From a virus: 27,160 nt of DNA. Shown one piece after another: positions 3,481 through 27,159 of the stretch (positions are counted from its first letter, which is position 1; each line of letters opens with the position of its first letter). The notes under the pieces were generated by a model. That model was not told where the DNA came from. It made no database searches and was given only the letters and a program-made list of their open reading frames with translations. The DNA lies in the IMG/VR virus record IMGVR_UViG_3300025881_000068, positions 1 through 27,160 of that record; one strand, written 5' to 3'. The position numbers were made by a program, and so were the translations under genes.

Positions 3481-3555
3481 TGGTTCCCCCAGAGGGACTC
3501 GAACCCTCATTCCCTGTTTAGGAAACAGGTTTCTATCCTGTTGAATTATGGAGGT
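3481..3555 (-). tRNA. tRNA-Arg, anticodon CCT (codon AGG)
   Basis: The anticodon arm CCTGT-TTCCTAA-ACAGG gives anticodon CCT. The T arm is GAGGG-TTCGAGT-CCCTC and the 3' end carries an encoded CCA. The acceptor pairs ACCTCCA with TGGGGGA, with an A:A mismatch at 1:72 and a U:G at position 4. The D stem has only three good pairs (TTC/GAA), and one connector base before the anticodon arm is missing, giving 75 nt in total. These oddities suggest an atypical or partly degraded tRNA, but all other landmarks are intact. It lies inside the operon between the primase-helicase and Sak4-like genes and must be cut out of the mRNA. Its codon AGG is the natural target of supplementation. Confidence 0.85.
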
Positions 3556-5935: not shown

Positions 5936-6934
5936 TTATGTTCGACTTCCGTCGTCGTGGAAGTAATTTTTGCGTTGTTCACAAACCGAGAAGGCAGGGC
6001 AGTACGGACAAGCCTTCACTTCACCGGGTACGGTGACGACTGTCCCTTTGCCTTTCTCCTGCAAGTGGAGCTGGGCATCAGCAGGGTTGTCGAAGTTCTT
6101 CTGACAACGACCACCAGCTTTGGCTGTCTCCGGGTTCGAGTAGTATTTGTACTGAGGCTCAGAGCGCCACAGCTCCTTGTCGGTACACTCCACCATCTTG
6201 TCTTGGCTCTTGCCAGCGTTCTCGATGATGTGGTCCACCTTCCCGTTGACCCAGTCTTCCGTCTCCTTGAGGGAGAGCAGAGGGAATTCCTTGTGAGGAG
6301 TCCGGATCTGAGGATAGCGGGGATCAGCAGTACGATACTTGACCCAGTCTGTGAAGATGAATTGGATCCTCATCACGTCATCCCGGATCAGGTCCGGCAT
6401 GATCCAGCGATACATGGACCCTTGGAGGATGTAGTCTTCATCCTTGTTCCCAGAAGTCCAAGCAAATGTGCTGGTGGATTTGAAATCCCGGTACGCCTGA
6501 CCGATCAGAAAGTCGAGCTGACCGGTGATGCAAAGATCACGGAACTGCTTGTACCCACGGATCTCCAGATAGATGGGGATCTCATCATCCTTCACGGTCT
6601 TCGGATCAGGGTTGATCCGCACCTTGTCGATGATCTTCTGAGGGTAGTGCAGCTTCCGCATGGCACCTTGCCAGTCACCCTGAGTCCATGCACGTTCGAT
6701 GGAGTCATGGAGACCGTGGCCCATACGGGAAGCGATGACATCTGAGAGATCCATCTCTTCCATCTTGTGATCCACTTTACGTTTGAGGATCAGTTGACGT
6801 GTTGGTTTCATCAGCGTGGTCACTGAGATCAGCTCACCGGGGGGAGCTTCAGCAGCCCCGGAGTTGTAACCGTCTTGCAGCAACCAAACCGCCAGAGGCA
6901 GGTCGATCTTGTGGTGGTTGGTGATCTTAACCAT
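5936..6934 (-). CDS. PD-(D/E)XK nuclease with cysteine cluster (Cas4/AddB-like)
   Basis: The protein has 332 aa. The longer frame begins at a TTG. I chose the ATG at 6934 (MVKITNHHK) because AAAGGA lies 9 nt before it. The PD-(D/E)XK residues are visible: LHDSIE (H76, E80), CITGQLDF (D141) and YRDFKSTS (D150, K152). Four cysteines (GRCQKNF, then ACPYCPAFSVC near the C-terminus) match the Fe-S cluster pattern of Cas4 and AddB nucleases. Such proteins are ssDNA/dsDNA-end exonucleases. Position between polymerase and primase-helicase matches the PD-(D/E)XK gene of N4-like replication modules. The gap to the primase-helicase is 11 nt. It probably acts in recombination or end processing. Confidence 0.8.
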   Translation of the reverse strand: MVKITNHHKIDLPLAVWLLQDGYNSGAAEAPPGELISVTTLMKPTRQLILKRKVDHKMEEMDLSDVIASRMGHGLHDSIERAWTQGDWQGAMRKLHYPQKIIDKVRINPDPKTVKDDEIPIYLEIRGYKQFRDLCITGQLDFLIGQAYRDFKSTSTFAWTSGNKDEDYILQGSMYRWIMPDLIRDDVMRIQFIFTDWVKYRTADPRYPQIRTPHKEFPLLSLKETEDWVNGKVDHIIENAGKSQDKMVECTDKELWRSEPQYKYYSNPETAKAGGRCQKNFDNPADAQLHLQEKGKGTVVTVPGEVKACPYCPAFSVCEQRKNYFHDDGSRT

Positions 6935-6948
6935 TGGATATGGTCCTT

Positions 6949-7284
6949 TCAAAAAGTGTTCATGTAGATGTGGAGCTTGTGATCGCCCCAGGTGGAGTCA
7001 GCAAATTGTGTGACGAGTTCTTCGCCACCATTGTCGAACCATTCCATGAACTTACGACGGATCTCAGGTTGAGTGAGGGAGATGTTATCTCCCTCCATCG
7101 GACCCCAACGGTAACTGCCAGATTCATAGAGCTTGGCTCCGAAGACCATCTCGGTGGAGTCCATGTTGAGCAAAGCAACACCGTCTGGAAGTTGGTAATC
7201 CAATTCGGCTGCCCATTGAGAGACAGCTTTGGAAGTTGGAAGCAACCAACCGTAGTATGCGATGACGCTTTGATTAACTGACAT
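6949..7284 (-). CDS. conserved-looking hypothetical protein, 111 aa
   Basis: No family recognised. The start at 7284 (MSVNQSVIAYYG) is preferred over an in-frame ATG six codons upstream, since AAAGGA sits 9 nt before it, the same spacing as in the next gene. The protein is Trp/Tyr-rich (YYGWLLP, SYRWGPMEGD, KFMEWFDNGG, STWGDHKLHIYM) and mixed alpha/beta, with no signal peptide or membrane segment. It overlaps the upstream gene by 11 nt and is 14 nt from the downstream nuclease start, so it is part of the replication operon. Function unknown. Confidence 0.75.
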   Translation of the reverse strand: MSVNQSVIAYYGWLLPTSKAVSQWAAELDYQLPDGVALLNMDSTEMVFGAKLYESGSYRWGPMEGDNISLTQPEIRRKFMEWFDNGGEELVTQFADSTWGDHKLHIYMNTF

Positions 7285-7627
7285 TTCCGAGGATCCTTTC
7301 ATTGTTATGGTTCACATGGCTCTTCCATTCGACACGTTTCACAGTGTTCAACTTTCTCAGAGCTGCATGATCCAGAACCACGAAGACAGGTGGACCACAT
7401 AGAACTTGGTCCGGTCTATCCCCGGTGGATCTGAATTTCACTCTGGCTTTATCGTAGAAAATCATACGGTTAGGCCAAGAGAATGAGTTGTGCCGATACA
7501 TCGTCAGCATCATCTCGATCATGTATTCACAGTGTCGAAAATCATGACACATATAGATGCAGTCACGACCTTTCTTGATGTGGTCTTGGAACATGTCGTG
7601 AAGCTGCCTAGACGACTGAAATCTCAT
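7274..7627 (-). CDS. hypothetical protein, 117 aa
   Basis: No family recognised. The ATG overlaps the stop of the polymerase C-terminal gene in an ATGA junction. The sequence is His/Met/Cys-rich at the N-terminus (DCIYMCHDFRHCEYMIEMM) and basic, with a hydrophobic strand GPPVFVVLDHAAL near residues 78-90 followed by a basic tail. The FVVLDHA strand resembles a Walker B, but there is no P-loop, so no ATPase call is made. The tight overlap on both sides supports expression with the replication genes. Confidence 0.7.
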   Translation of the reverse strand: MRFQSSRQLHDMFQDHIKKGRDCIYMCHDFRHCEYMIEMMLTMYRHNSFSWPNRMIFYDKARVKFRSTGDRPDQVLCGPPVFVVLDHAALRKLNTVKRVEWKSHVNHNNERILGNVS

Positions 7628-8370
7628 GCTGCCAGTTTCTCCAGGTGTTTGGTGATCTCTGCTTTGACATCACCGATGGTTGAGTCTTTCGGAATGGTCA
7701 TCTCTTCCTTCCAGTTTGGATAGAAGATCGACAGTTCCCCAGACATTTTGATGTGCTCATTCTGGATGGCAGGATCCTCTTGCCAGCTCACAGCTTTCAC
7801 CATGTGCTTGTTGGTATAGAGGACAGTTTCCATATCATCCCGGATGAGCATGTAGTTTGCGTCATGGATCTGAGCACAAGGTTTGATGTCCAAACGATGT
7901 GGTCCCTTTCGGACAGTCTGCATGAACTCAGAACCAGCACGACTATTCAACATGCAGTAGGATTGACCGAGAGCATTACCTGCTGTCCGGCCCTCTGCTG
8001 CTGCCTCATACGGTGTCTTACTGGTTCCCAAGACAACCTGCTTGAGCAGGGGAGTTCGCAATCTCAGGCCAAATGCGAGGGTGACGTAGCCATCCTTACA
8101 GGCTTGCTCCAGTTTATCTGCAACCCACTTGTCGGAGACGTGGTACAGATCGTGATAGCTGGCTTCGATTGACTTAGCCAACTGCGAGGTGAAGCCACAG
8201 TTCGCCATCAGAGTCACATACGTCCCCTGATAGGTGAGAGCGAAAGTCGGTGCCTTCGACTCTTGTCTCCAGTGGGGATAGAGCTTCTTGATGGAGTTGA
8301 CACGAGCGACATTGTGTTCGCTCGCGTCTACTGTGGAGACAGACTCGACTGTCCCAACCAGTTTAAGCAT
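7624..8370 (-). CDS. DNA polymerase family A, C-terminal piece (motifs B and C)
   Basis: The protein has 248 aa. The frame opens at 8484, but the first ~38 codons lie inside the Tad2-like gene and read nothing familiar. The ATG at 8370 overlaps the Tad2-like stop (ATGCTTAA), giving MLKLVGTVES. It carries polymerase motif B (RQESKAPTFALTYQG, R35, K39, Y47), the conserved EGRTAGNALGQS segment, and motif C with QIHDAN (H169, D170), ending in GELSIFYPNW as family A phage polymerases do. It lacks motif A and the exonuclease, which lie in the 8839-10923 gene. The two chains must associate to give an active enzyme. The pieces are in the same frame but separated by stops, so this is not a sequencing frameshift. 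Confidence 0.9.
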   Translation of the reverse strand: MLKLVGTVESVSTVDASEHNVARVNSIKKLYPHWRQESKAPTFALTYQGTYVTLMANCGFTSQLAKSIEASYHDLYHVSDKWVADKLEQACKDGYVTLAFGLRLRTPLLKQVVLGTSKTPYEAAAEGRTAGNALGQSYCMLNSRAGSEFMQTVRKGPHRLDIKPCAQIHDANYMLIRDDMETVLYTNKHMVKAVSWQEDPAIQNEHIKMSGELSIFYPNWKEEMTIPKDSTIGDVKAEITKHLEKLAA

Positions 8371-8830
8371 CCGGGACCAGAACCCAGTCCAGAGCCAGCA
8401 TGTCAGACTGTGAGCAGAGCCAAGGAACGATTGTCCCATCGGCTGTGAACATGTCCACATGAGGTTGATAGTTGAACTTGGCACCTTCGCCGAGGATCGA
8501 GAGCAGAGGCTCCCGATTGACAGTCAGATTGTGCGAACCAGCAACCAAGAACAGGAACATGTTTTTCCCGTTCCAGCCATACCGTGCCACACGTTTACCA
8601 GCCTTCAGATGTTCGATGGCTGTACCAAATCCGAACATACCGTCAGAGGTGTAGGTGGCTTCGAAGACATCAGCAGGGGACCAGCTTTGATAGCCGTCTG
8701 CATAGATGACCAGATAGCCCTCACGAGCTGGGTCTTCATCTTCTGGGATCGTCCATCCCCGGTGGGTGTTGTAGTCACCCAGGTTCATCTTGGTCGCTGT
8801 CAGCGACTTGGTTCCAACGTATTGCTTCAT
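8363..8830 (-). CDS. Tad2-like anti-Thoeris protein (DUF2829) with N-terminal extension
   Basis: The protein has 155 aa from the ATG at 8830 (MKQYVGTK, the usual start of this family). A GTG four codons upstream, overlapping the polymerase stop as GTGA, is an alternative. Residues ~1-60 form the frequently linked module (GWTIPEDED, GYLVIYADGYQSWSP). Residues ~66-155 are the DUF2829/Tad2 domain: FGTAIEHLKAGKRVARYGWN, MFLFLV, HVDMFTADGTIVPWLCSQ and DMLALDWVLV. Tad2 proteins sequester the ADP-ribose-derived cyclic signals made by Thoeris TIR proteins. The key Trp and Asp of the ligand-binding DMxxADGTIVPW region are present. The gene fills the break between the two polymerase pieces and overlaps the C-terminal piece by 8 nt. 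The sequestration function is inferred from the family. Confidence 0.88.
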   Translation of the reverse strand: MKQYVGTKSLTATKMNLGDYNTHRGWTIPEDEDPAREGYLVIYADGYQSWSPADVFEATYTSDGMFGFGTAIEHLKAGKRVARYGWNGKNMFLFLVAGSHNLTVNREPLLSILGEGAKFNYQPHVDMFTADGTIVPWLCSQSDMLALDWVLVPDA

Positions 8831-8838
8831 GGATTTAC

Positions 8839-10923
8839 TCACTTGTTGAGTTGGGCAAACAGCTCATGTCCGAGCAGCTTTTGACCCTCATATTCTATCT
8901 CCTCATCACTGTGGAAATAGATCTCTTTCCCATCGACGACTGCCTTGTAGGGGGTAGCCCCTTCTGGAAGCAGTTCAATGTCTGGCATGTGCTCTTTGAA
9001 ATAAGCCAATGCACGAAGACAGTGTCCGTCGAACCCATCAGAATACACCTTGATCTTCTCTGGATCTTTGGTGGTCACTGCTGAGATCTTGTCCTCCAAC
9101 GAGTCGAAGTCCAAGCCCACAAACAGCCATCCGGGGGGTGCTTCAAAGCACTCCTTGATGAGCTTGGCAAGCCTTTGTTTGACGGGTGTCGAACCAGCAG
9201 AAGGGATGTTCTGTAGGTTGGGGTTGTTGCTGGAAAGTCTCCCAGATGCTGTGCCACCCAGTCGGAAGTTTCCGAACAGGTAATGCCATCCATCGTTGCC
9301 CTTCTGAGCTTTCAAGAATGCTGGAAGGAACGTCGAGAGGATGATCGCACTGGCTTTGTACTCGATCAGGATCTCCAAGAACCGAATCACTTCGGGATCC
9401 TTGGTGTGGTTGATGAGCTTCTCCAGTGTGTCAGCACCTGTGGCAGGTTGCTTGGAGTCTGTGTAATCCAGCACAGGCAAACCAAGGAAGTTCTCGTCAT
9501 AGAGAAAGCGTTGGAGCTGCTGTGAGGATCCGGGGTTGAACTCGACGATGGTGTCTTTGGTCTTCCCGAGATCAGCCTTCGTGATCTGCTTGGTTTTCAG
9601 CTTGGCGTTCTTCTCGATGACCTTCTCATCTCGGAGCTGATCCATGAAGGACCAGACGATCTGGAGATTGTTCATCTTGGCCAAGTTGTCGCTGCTCTCC
9701 TTGTTGAGCTGCTTGTCCAGTGCGATGACCTTCTTCATGTTCAGAGGCATCCCGGTGAGCTGCATCTGAATGATGTCGATCACGGCTGGACGGAAGAGTG
9801 ACTGATACGGCACGTCTTGCTCGTCAGCGATCATGATCGGGTAGTTCTTCTTGAAGACATACCATGTGGAGAGGCCGTCGATCAGGTTGTATTCCAACAG
9901 CTTGGGCAACGGGATCTGGGTGATGTCATGGATGTCTTCCACGGCATAGTTCCCAGCGAACTCCTGAGCCTGAGCCTTGAGACCCAGCTCATTTCCAGCA
10001 CAGGAATTGGTGGCCAGATAGGAGATGATCTGTGTGCAGTCCCAGTCTCTCAGCATCACATCAAGACCTTCGAGGAGACCCTCTTGATCAAGGATGTGAT
10101 CCATAAACAGTTGATAAACAAGGACATACACGTCGTAGCAGATGTTGTGATAGATCATCTTCCGCTTGAAGTTACGGAAGAAAACCTGAAGAGCAGCTCG
10201 AACAGCTTTGTTCTTGAACTGCACTCCGTGAGCACCTTCAGCAGCACTCCCCTTGGCAACGACGTAGTCAACAGGGAAGGCAATGCCTTCGTGCTCATTC
10301 CAGCAGAAAGTGATCGTCCCGATCTCTGCATCGTAGTGCTTCAAGGAGAAGCCTTCGATGTCACAGGTCAGGTCACAGTCCATTTTCAGCAGCTTGTCGA
10401 GCCACTGTGCGATGTCTGTGTCTGTCATGGGATAGTCAGCGAACTTGATGATGTTCTGGCCAGTGACCGTCACATCTCCCTTGGCCCACCGTTTGGTAGA
10501 CTCCAGAGCCATCCCGATCTTCTTCTTCATGTTGTCCGGGTCATAGAAGACCCGTGCATAGTTGGGACAGTAGGTGATCGAGAAGTCTGGATCGTAATCG
10601 GAGATGAAGAAATCCCCGATGGTCGCATCTGTCTTGGCTTTCTTCGAGAGGATCTTGAAGTAGTCAGGCTGTGTCACGATTAGCATCTTGATGCCTGCTG
10701 CCTTGAGGTTGGGCAACAGGTCATCAAGATACTCTTTCATGTCAGAGGCTGAGTTCTTCTTCTTGGTTCCATCCATGAAGAGATCAGCAACCATGACGCT
10801 CTCACCCAGAGCAAGCAGGTGAGGTTGGTAGTAATGCTTCTGCACCTCCGCTGTCTGGATGCGTGGAACCAGGATACAAATCCGAGGATCCTTTGCAGAG
10901 TTGCCGATGACTTCATACTTCAT
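8839..10923 (-). CDS. DNA polymerase family A, N-terminal piece (exonuclease and motif A)
   Basis: The protein has 694 aa, with an ATG behind AGGAGA. The 3'-5' exonuclease motifs are present: ExoI CDIEGF (D188, E190), ExoII YHNICYDV, and ExoIII YNLIDGL. Thumb/palm sequence follows (FNPGSSQQLQ, GGTASGRLSSNNPNLQNIPS) and then motif A VGLDFDSLED (catalytic Asp at about 605). The chain stops 90 residues later, after DGHCLRALAYF and IEYEGQKLLGHEL, before motifs B and C. The first ~165 residues are a non-catalytic domain I do not recognise. It overlaps no polymerase sequence in the downstream piece, so the pair is complementary. It starts 2 nt downstream of the stop of the 57-aa gene. Confidence 0.92.
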   Translation of the reverse strand: MKYEVIGNSAKDPRICILVPRIQTAEVQKHYYQPHLLALGESVMVADLFMDGTKKKNSASDMKEYLDDLLPNLKAAGIKMLIVTQPDYFKILSKKAKTDATIGDFFISDYDPDFSITYCPNYARVFYDPDNMKKKIGMALESTKRWAKGDVTVTGQNIIKFADYPMTDTDIAQWLDKLLKMDCDLTCDIEGFSLKHYDAEIGTITFCWNEHEGIAFPVDYVVAKGSAAEGAHGVQFKNKAVRAALQVFFRNFKRKMIYHNICYDVYVLVYQLFMDHILDQEGLLEGLDVMLRDWDCTQIISYLATNSCAGNELGLKAQAQEFAGNYAVEDIHDITQIPLPKLLEYNLIDGLSTWYVFKKNYPIMIADEQDVPYQSLFRPAVIDIIQMQLTGMPLNMKKVIALDKQLNKESSDNLAKMNNLQIVWSFMDQLRDEKVIEKNAKLKTKQITKADLGKTKDTIVEFNPGSSQQLQRFLYDENFLGLPVLDYTDSKQPATGADTLEKLINHTKDPEVIRFLEILIEYKASAIILSTFLPAFLKAQKGNDGWHYLFGNFRLGGTASGRLSSNNPNLQNIPSAGSTPVKQRLAKLIKECFEAPPGWLFVGLDFDSLEDKISAVTTKDPEKIKVYSDGFDGHCLRALAYFKEHMPDIELLPEGATPYKAVVDGKEIYFHSDEEIEYEGQKLLGHELFAQLNK

Positions 10924-24877: not shown

Positions 24878-25717
24878 CTACTCCAGAATGACAAAGGTGG
24901 CAGCATTAGTGGTATATGCTGTGTTTTCAGGTTGACCAAGTACAGCATAAAGAGAGTGCTGTGAAGTGGACACGGCTTGGTTCGAGTTACCCAAGACAGC
25001 GTAGAAGCTGTGAGCATAGAGATGGGCTTCCTTCGGTTTTGGTTTCAGAAGGACACCTGCCATGATCAGACGTGTGTTGGTTGTTCCAACTGAGGTGTCA
25101 GCGATGGTCTTGGTTTCCTCGACAGAGATGTGCTCACTGTAGACAGCAAAAATGTCTGTGCCTTCGTAAGCAGTTGAAGGCATGTGGACTGTATCCAGAC
25201 CACTCATCGAGACTGTCCCACTTCGGCTACTCATGGCAGCCAGAACAACTTCATCTTCCTTGACTGGGACATCAACAGAGAAGCCGGTTCCTCGTGCAAA
25301 GAAGAATTCGATATTGTTCAGATCCACATTGCTGGAGATCAGCCAGTTTGATGCACCCCGACGGTAGGATGTGGAGCTGTGAGTGAAGTCGAGCTGGTAG
25401 TCACCGGGGGTGGTGATTGTCACGTAACCCCATGTAACTTCTTCATAATCGTTGCTTTCATAGGTTCCGATTTGTATGATCGGATACCCTCCAGCATCGA
25501 GCAGAGTGATTGGGCTATCAGATCCCCCAGCACCACCAGATGCACCGTAAAGTGCAATGATGTACGTCCCAATCTCATCAAAAGAGAGAGTGGGATCGTA
25601 GTTGTTGTCTCCAGAGTAATCAGTGCCTTTGTAGACGGCAGTGACTTCCGTTGAAGGAGGAGGTGTTGCAGCGATGATTGCAGATGCACTCACCGAACTG
25701 AGGAGAAGACTCATCAT
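24878..25717 (-). CDS. tail protein with C-terminal repeats
   Basis: The protein has 279 aa. Its ATG overlaps the stop of the collagen-like gene (ATGATG). N-terminal [20 protein letters not shown] is Ala/Ser-rich. It resembles a signal-like or assembly segment, but phage virion proteins rarely need export. Glycine-rich beta sequence follows ([20 protein letters not shown]). The last ~55 residues hold two copies of a repeat, [18 protein letters not shown] and [18 protein letters not shown]. This fits a fibre or adhesin component. No closer family recognised. Confidence 0.7.
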
Positions 25718-27159
25718 GTGGTCAGGTGTCCTACCAGATAATAGACATCGGCTGTGTCCCCATCAGGGATGAGGGTTGCTGAACCATATTGAGCACCAAT
25801 GGTCAGGTTTCCATCAGCACTGTGAATGGTCACATTGGTTCCAGCAACGAAGACAACAGATCCAGCACCAGTCTGGATGTATGTTGCTGGTTCAACGCCT
25901 GTCAGGTTTTCAGGAACTGTGACTGTGATCTGAGCAGCATTGGCCATCTTACGGAAGATGTTCCCTGCCAGATCGGCATTGGTCACAGAATATGCAGTGG
26001 CTGTGTTGGAAGCTGGAACGATTGCAGAGACACCGTCTTGTCCATCAGTACCATCGGCACCGGCTGGACCCTGTGGCCCCGGTACAGTTGAGTCAGCTCC
26101 TGCTGGACCCTGTGGTCCTTCTGGGCCGATAGTGCCTTGTGGACCCGGAACTGTGCTGTCTGCACCGGTGTCACCTTTAGGTCCAGCCGGTCCTTGGATA
26201 CCGGGATCACCCTTTGGACCGGGTACAGTTGAAGGAGCACCTTCATCACCTTGAGGTCCGACTGGGCCTTGTGGTCCGGGAACAATGGAATCGTCTCCAT
26301 CATCACCCTTGTCACCTTTTGGTCCTTTGAGAGACACACCAAGTGGCCAAGTACCAGAGGCTTTTGGACCATGCAGTGTGTAAGTGCTTGTATTCAGGTA
26401 GAAATCACCTGTGTTACCTTGGGTCGTAGGATTTGAAGTACCATGGAGAATACCTTCACCATTGTTACCTGTGGCACCTTTGATCGAGACACCAGCATCC
26501 CAACCCCCAACAGTCTTAGGACCGTAGAGATAGAGGCTGAGTGTGTTGATGAAGAAGTCACCAACATTACCGATACCAGCAGTCGGAGGAGCTGTTCCGT
26601 CCAACATTGAACGTCCAGCCGGTCCTTGAGCACCGATTGAACCAGTGTCACCTTTGGCTCCCTTTGGACCAACCGGTCCCTGTGGACCCTGTGGGCCGGG
26701 AATGTCGGAGTAACCAGCAGGACCACGATCACCAGTGTCGCCCTTGTAGCCTCGTGGGCCTTGTTCACCTTGGGGTCCGGGGATAGTGGAAGCATCCCCT
26801 TTGTCACCCTTGTCCCCTTTGGGACCACGAGGACCGGGGACAGTAGAGACAGGACCAATGGGGCCTTGGACACCCTGCGGACCTTGAGGGCCTTCAGGAC
26901 CGATTGGACCTTGTGGTCCAACGTCACCTTGTTCACCCTTGTAGCCACGGAGACCACGCTCACCTTGTGGACCCTGCTCACCCTGAATACCCTGTGGACC
27001 TTGTTCCCCACCACCTGCGAACAGGGATGAGGACTTGGTGCCAACAGTCAGAGTGAACGTCTCTTCCTTGCTCATGGAGAGCTGAAAAGAAGGGCCAAGC
27101 TCAGTCGTGAGATTGAAAGCTGGCCCCAGAGTTGTGTTCAGATCGAGAGTTTCGTTCTT
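25714..27159 (-). CDS. collagen-like tail fibre protein (partial, 5' end outside window)
   Basis: The frame is open past the ATG at 27075 to the right edge, and that ATG lacks a ribosome-binding site. The residues before it ([20 protein letters not shown]...) form a short beta repeat continuous with LTVGTKSS, so the gene extends further. Gly-X-Y triplets occupy two blocks (~50-170 and ~265-375 of the visible part), with many PQG and DKGD units. Between them is a tandem of ~40-residue domains ([18 protein letters not shown] and [18 protein letters not shown]). A C-terminal beta domain ([16 protein letters not shown]-like) may act as the trimerisation or receptor tip. Phage collagen stretches form rigid trimeric shafts. 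Confidence 0.9.

Follow-up and report, generated by a model that had tools for sequence, protein, structure and literature searches.

A family A DNA polymerase gene in two pieces in an N4-like virus contig, with a Tad2-like gene in the break

The divided polymerase gene and the gene in its break

The window analyzed here is a 27-kb virus contig (27,160 nucleotides (nt); IMG/VR record IMGVR_UViG_3300025881_000068), and all coordinates are window positions unless another contig is named. It encodes an N4-like (Schitoviridae) replication block on its minus strand, in which the family A DNA polymerase is found as two separate open reading frames (ORFs). From position 10923 down to 7624, the minus strand encodes the N-terminal portion of the polymerase (N-piece), a Tad2-like protein, and the C-terminal portion of the polymerase (C-piece), with the following features:

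8839–10923, minus strand: N-piece, family A DNA polymerase, 694 amino acids, with 3′-5′ exonuclease motifs and motif A
9111–9094, minus strand: motif A of the N-piece, D605–E610
8842–8976, minus strand: N-tail, a 45-amino-acid C-terminal extension of the N-piece (ELLPEG..YKAVVDGKEIYFHSDEEIEYEGQKLLGHELFAQLNK), absent from intact relatives by alignment
8363–8842, minus strand: Tad2-like gene (PF11195) in the break, with an N-terminal accessory domain followed by the Tad2 domain (residues 72–156)
8363–8370, minus strand: ATGCTTAA, overlap of the gap-gene stop with the C-piece start, putative translational coupling
7624–8370, minus strand: C-piece, DNA polymerase, 248 amino acids, with the fingers O helix (motif B) and motif C
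8326–8370, minus strand: C-head, a ~15-amino-acid N-terminal extension of the C-piece (MLKLVGTVESVSTVD), absent from intact relatives by alignment
8268–8221, minus strand: motif B of the C-piece, fingers O helix
8232–8233, minus strand: codon 46/47 junction of the C-piece (PTFALT, then YQGTY), uninterrupted in the window (0 nt) and the site of inserts in HNH-bearing relatives
7869–7858, minus strand: motif C of the C-piece

The exonuclease and motifs A, B, and C of the Schitoviridae family A DNA polymerase (N4 gp39) are shared out over these two ORFs, and the catalytic set is complete. The N-piece holds the exonuclease residues (D188/E190, D264, and Y345/D349) and motif A (D605-F-D-S-L-E610), the C-piece holds motif B (R35..K39..F43..Y47) and motif C (H169-D170), and all of these motif residues are invariant in 14–15 split relatives. 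The N-piece corresponds to positions 25–199 of the Pfam DNA_pol_A profile (PHROG DNA polymerase match, phrog_17) and the C-piece to positions 199–335 (PHROG match, phrog_2573); given that the two profile matches meet at position 199, the C-piece resumes exactly where the N-piece ends. The start at 8484 in the ORF list is a longer reading of the C-piece ORF in the same frame.

In named relatives (roseophages, rhizobiophages, and the Pseudomonas phage Zuri) the polymerase is a single intact gene at the same operon position, with the roseophage polymerases closest to the N-piece (64–67% identity). In the alignment to these intact relatives the break falls directly after the residues MPDI, and a profile alignment to Taq polymerase places it past motif A and ahead of motif B, in the loop of the fingers that immediately precedes the O helix, near what we take to be Taq residues 648–655 (numbering anchored on R659/K663).

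The middle ORF (8842–8363) matched PF11195 with 87 bits (curated cut-off 25), and the nearest solved structures are the Tad2 proteins 9eib, 8v3e, and 8wjd. A possible GTG start of this gene overlaps the N-piece stop as GTGA (8842–8839), with an alternative ATG at 8830, 8 nt past that stop, which is the better start given its conservation in relatives and gives a protein of 155 amino acids; at the other end of the gene, the stop codon lies within the 8-nt overlap with the C-piece start (8370–8363). The initial annotation of this stretch had described the same division of motifs, a Tad2-like gene exactly between the pieces with these overlaps, and a break in a surface loop, all of which was borne out. 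Proteins of the Tad2 family sequester glycocyclic ADP-ribose (gcADPR) and cyclic dinucleotides (PMC12043709). With its Tad2 domain well above the cut-off, and with N4 gp49 aligning to it over nearly its full length, the gap protein is expected to act as a sponge for nucleotide immune signals of the host (Thoeris or CBASS). Unlike the N4 gp49 gene, which lies ~9 kb from the polymerase beside the virion RNA polymerase, the gene in the window lies inside the polymerase gene.

Selection on both pieces and their extra ends

More than 20 further contigs, drawn from different metagenomes, have the identical break and keep its ends conserved, as does the contig WAML01000115.1 of a metagenome-assembled genome (MAG) in GenBank; a scan of bacterial genomes yielded a single phage contig, which had probably been binned by mistake with an archaeal MAG. 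The ratio of nonsynonymous to synonymous substitution (dN/dS) between the window and four relatives (L027, L028, L030, and L034) was 0.06–0.12 for both polymerase cores and 0.10–0.24 for the N-tail, the C-head being too short for such a judgement. Given the low values in both pieces, the polymerase most likely works as two chains, as had been supposed from the sequence at the outset. The gene is intact in relatives, broken once here, and retained in both its parts, which is one of the defining features of a gene in pieces made by a homing endonuclease.

The initial annotation further held that both polymerase ends match the loop region of intact relatives. The break is indeed located there, but the N-tail and the C-head are foreign to the intact genes. 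The N-tail is kept in 14 split relatives, and the C-head is likewise kept across split relatives. Single-piece AlphaFold models were too uncertain for docking or a fold search, the palm beside the N-tail being poorly predicted (shallow alignment), while the N-tail itself was locally confident and is predicted to form a small unit of four strands and a helix (beta4-alpha; local predicted local distance difference test (pLDDT) score 66–87).

A homologous N-tail is also present in the cultured Escherichia phage Pollock and Klebsiella phage Pylas (Schitoviridae), in which the same gene is broken ~20 codons upstream of the break in the window, with an HNH gene where the window has Tad2. Despite the two different break sites, the window-type and Pollock-type N-tails are homologous (mean shuffle z 5–6; profile-profile E 1.7e-6). 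Tblastn with the window N-tail alone against the named phages gave no match, so the exact window N-tail occurs in no isolate of that collection. We regard the N-tail as a probable interaction module derived from a mobile element, and the N-tail and C-head probably provide contacts between the two polymerase chains.

Contents of the gap in relatives

The survey of relatives foreseen in the initial annotation found both intact and split polymerase genes, with varying genes in the gap of the split ones. Tad2-like gap genes occur in 14 contigs (the window, L013, L014, L018, L039, L041, L042, L056, L062, L066, L067, L079, L088, and L262), and gap genes with an Acb2/Tad1 hairpin (PF24729) in at least five (L010, L011, L012, L017, and L037), that of L017 being fused to a RyR domain. 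In L035 (6797–7342) the gap gene also joins a RyR domain to the hairpin, possibly a sponge with an extra ligand-binding part. The gap holds a 72-amino-acid ORF (7083–7298) and a RyR-like fragment in L036 and a 99-amino-acid ORF (2678–2974) in L040; these two ORFs match no family and are candidates for unknown counter-defence genes. Four contigs carry a gap ORF of 647–648 amino acids, judged by eye from its sequence to be ribonucleotide reductase-like (L094:2799–4745, L107:491–2434, L108:2520–4463, and L112:2955–4898). The gap holds only an HNH gene in L064, L095, L158, L159, and L261, Tad2 together with HNH in L018/L031 and L067, and nothing but 9–10 nt in L015 and L045; L034 likewise has no gap gene. 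As a separate observation, L051 has another polymerase interruption (6175–7383, ~1.2 kb) between residues 504 and 511, with several small ORFs.

Close relatives differ in their gap contents. In L009/L027, the closest relative of the window (94% and 97% amino acid identity in the N- and C-piece), a deletion has removed the middle of the Tad2 gene, leaving 18 codons from its two ends. Together with the splits of L034 and L045, this contradicts the initial suggestion that a gene in this position would be hard to lose. The Tad2 identities do not track those of the polymerase: window and L030 share 85% in the C-piece and 58% in Tad2, and window and L056 share 75% and 68%. Across the whole contigs, genes matching PF11195 or PF24729 are confined to the gap with two exceptions, i.e., a Tad2 gene at 66 kb in L094, whose gap holds the reductase, and an Acb2-type gene above the cut-off elsewhere in the contig of L067 (G021:15132–15272); the contig of L159 has a match below the cut-off outside the gap. 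Neither family was found in two whole roseophage genomes with an intact polymerase (72.7 and 74.7 kb). DNA identity is raised around the slot, which may come from recombination but also from the conserved motifs, and we did not use it as support.

Unrelated gap genes overlap the C-piece start in the same or a similar way as the Tad2-like gene (ATGCTTAA), so that swaps would preserve the coupling. To judge by these overlaps, a gene placed in the slot would be translated together with the polymerase, in line with the initial annotation.

Origin of the break and use of the slot

Several findings point to an HNH homing endonuclease as the agent of the break. HNH genes, alone or with Tad2, lie at the window's own break site in other lineages, and at the Pollock-type site an HNH gene was present in every record checked. 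L095 shares 94% DNA identity with the intact L122 up to the break and therefore gained its N-tail, HNH gene, and C-head recently and together. Split forms are also scattered over the polymerase tree, which was built by a quick method and whose well-supported (starred) branches require at least nine changes. By analogy with nrdA of the Aeromonas phage Aeh1 and genes 39/60 of phage T4, scattered splits with HNH intermediates are the pattern of a mobile cassette, and we consider an HNH homing-endonuclease cassette the most likely cause of the break.

The Aeh1 nrdA-a/mobE/nrdA-b locus, whose split enzyme is reported to be functional (PMC2988022), resembles the window in that an essential DNA-metabolism gene is broken, the ORFs overlap, and both break ends carry extra residues. 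It differs in the gene concerned and in having a free-standing HNH gene in the break, where the window has a Tad2-like gene and no endonuclease; the Aeh1 NrdA tail showed no homology to the N-tails in a comparison of tails. In T4 a homing endonuclease splits the topoisomerase gene (gene 39/mobA/gene 60), and the C-terminal gene contains a 50-nt insert, bypassed by the ribosome, after codon 46 (PMC5009743). HNH-bearing relatives of the window have inserts of 1–48 nt close to codon 46 in the C-piece, with bypass a prediction, whereas the C-piece of the window is free of such a T4 gene 60-type non-coding insert (0 nt at codon 46/47). The inserts lie at the following positions:

L018:4690–4790, L064:5830–5900, L158:4700–4770, L159:1140–1200, and L107:2625–2690: long inserts, 40–48 nt
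L067:6440–6470, L095:5135–5150, and L261:3805–3820: short frame-breaking inserts, 1 and 5 nt

In all seven HNH-bearing loci at the window's break site, an insert lies on the 46/47 junction or a few codons from it at most (L018, 40 nt; L064, 47 nt; L067, 1 nt; L095, 5 nt; L158, 48 nt; L159, 45 nt; L261, 5 nt), and 24 of the 25 loci lacking HNH are insert-free, the exception being L107 (48 nt); the association (Fisher p 2.4e-6) serves as a guide only, since related sequences are not independent. The five long inserts share a strong hairpin, a stop codon, an A/G-rich stretch, and threonine codons (ACN) on both sides, and are predicted, by likeness to T4 gene 60, to be candidate ribosomal bypass elements. 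The L261 insert reads ACG TA ACG, with matched codons around a stop; a clear hop was not seen in the short inserts of L067 and L095, and these may be either defective copies or errors in the sequence. A search for the hairpin-insert DNA pattern returned the known loci and two identical chance matches in a repeat. Separately, the polymerase gene of the cultured Acinetobacter phage nACB1 carries, near motif B, a group I intron-like element (L236:3855–4660; E 8e-9, below the Rfam gathering score), which interrupts it and encodes an HNH protein ~54% identical to the free-standing ones.

The strongest alternative, which we consider unlikely, is that the split arose otherwise (a stop codon with an internal start, or simple fission), with an HNH gene entering the existing gap later and the tails being gap-derived read-through. 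L113, L117, and L145 are split forms whose gaps are short and whose tails differ, L031 and L067 have both Tad2 and HNH in the gap, and comparable doubt has been published for Aeromonas phages with a split gene 43 (PMC2988022), all of which would fit a split that came first. It fits poorly with tails that are homologous at two sites, of which the Pollock-type always has HNH in the records checked, and with the recent joint gain of tail, HNH, and head in L095.

Less probable still is the explanation offered in the initial annotation, in which the polymerase was split by the Tad2 cassette itself on entering a permissive loop, the location of the cassette then guarding the anti-defence gene from loss. 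The exact position of the Tad2-like gene in the break, its overlapping codons, and the fact that Tad2 is the commonest gap gene within the window's clade are what this explanation would predict. However, homologous N-tails adjoin HNH genes in split relatives that lack Tad2, unrelated genes occupy the same slot, and the empty slots of L034 and L045 and the 18-codon remnant of L027 speak against protection from loss; the empty and HNH-only slots largely refute it.

Introns and inteins are frequent in phage polymerases, and nACB1, with its intron-like element and related HNH near motif B, would lend some plausibility to splicing, by a group I or group II intron or a split intein in the gap, with one full-length polymerase as the product. 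We nonetheless consider splicing very improbable given that overlaps of 4 and 8 nt are too tight for an intron, that an Rfam scan of the window found only a tRNA and no intron, and that Pfam detected no Hint domain. A group I intron was rejected on the lack of its catalytic RNA core in the window (Rfam), and a split intein on the lack of the Hint fold and of the junction residues (Pfam and extension alignments), the N-tail not starting with C/S and the C-head having no HN-C/S/T junction. Chance, an assembly error, considered in the initial annotation, or a dead polymerase gene, the last two of which the metagenomic nature of the window might suggest, is for practical purposes excluded by the recurrence of the break in many independent assemblies, the strong purifying selection on both pieces, and the HNH-split relatives in culture.

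We therefore favor, with good though not full confidence, a two-chain polymerase made from a permanently broken gene, its break opened by an HNH cassette and its gap now a recombination slot for small counter-defence genes. Some points weigh against this interpretation. Neither an HNH gene nor a remnant of one is present in the window, whose history is reconstructed from relatives, and with HNH missing it is a derivative of the gene-in-pieces arrangement and not a full member. The window-type splits lacking HNH are all metagenomic, with no isolate among them; the pieces, modeled singly, are predicted with low confidence in the palm and fingers; and the gap Tad2 genes group together somewhat, which makes some vertical inheritance likely.

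Under the favored interpretation, an HNH homing-endonuclease cassette would have opened the break, bringing the tail and head along, and the endonuclease would later have been lost in the lineage of the window. A single mRNA would then encode, in order, the N-piece (exonuclease, thumb, the motif A half of the palm, and the 45-amino-acid tail), the Tad2-like protein, and the C-piece (the ~15-amino-acid head, the fingers from the O helix, and motifs B and C), with the overlapping stop and start codons coupling translation by reinitiation. The two polymerase chains would join non-covalently into an active enzyme, probably aided by the tail and head, while the Tad2-like protein would sequester the nucleotide immune signals. 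The slot contents, for the most part Tad2 or Acb2/Tad1-hairpin sponges for cyclic nucleotides, would be exchanged through homologous recombination in the polymerase sequence on either side. Homing endonucleases in or near essential phage genes are known to mark exchange tracts, termed homing endonuclease gene (HEG) islands (PMC10448857); the window-type slot would differ from these in outlasting its endonuclease and still being exchanged.

A broader proposal, for and against which we see the case as evenly balanced, is that a homing cassette like that of T4 mobA/gene 60 (an HNH gene, a split that comes with portable tails for assembly, and a bypassed motif B insert) spreads through Schitoviridae polymerases, and that after the death of the endonuclease the break becomes a sponge-exchange slot coupled to an obligately two-chain polymerase. 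In the HNH alleles, the C-piece would be made by ribosomes that hop 40–48 nt from one threonine codon to another.

Elsewhere in the window, the replication block includes a tRNA gene (3484–3555, minus strand; Rfam), and a protein with collagen-like repeats is encoded at 25714–27075 (minus strand).

Genes in pieces of this kind are already known; a sponge-gene exchange slot in an essential polymerase is new, as far as our searches reach. Natural cases of ribosomal bypass were very few in a 2016 review (PMC5009743), and the candidate inserts described here would add to this rarely documented mechanism. Studies of fragment complementation may profit from a family A polymerase that would naturally work as two chains and whose tail and head modules recur at two sites. 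For these phages, the insertion site of a parasitic gene in an essential replication enzyme would have turned into a lasting site at which counter-defence genes can be exchanged, and the contents of polymerase breaks may offer a simple route to new anti-defence genes.

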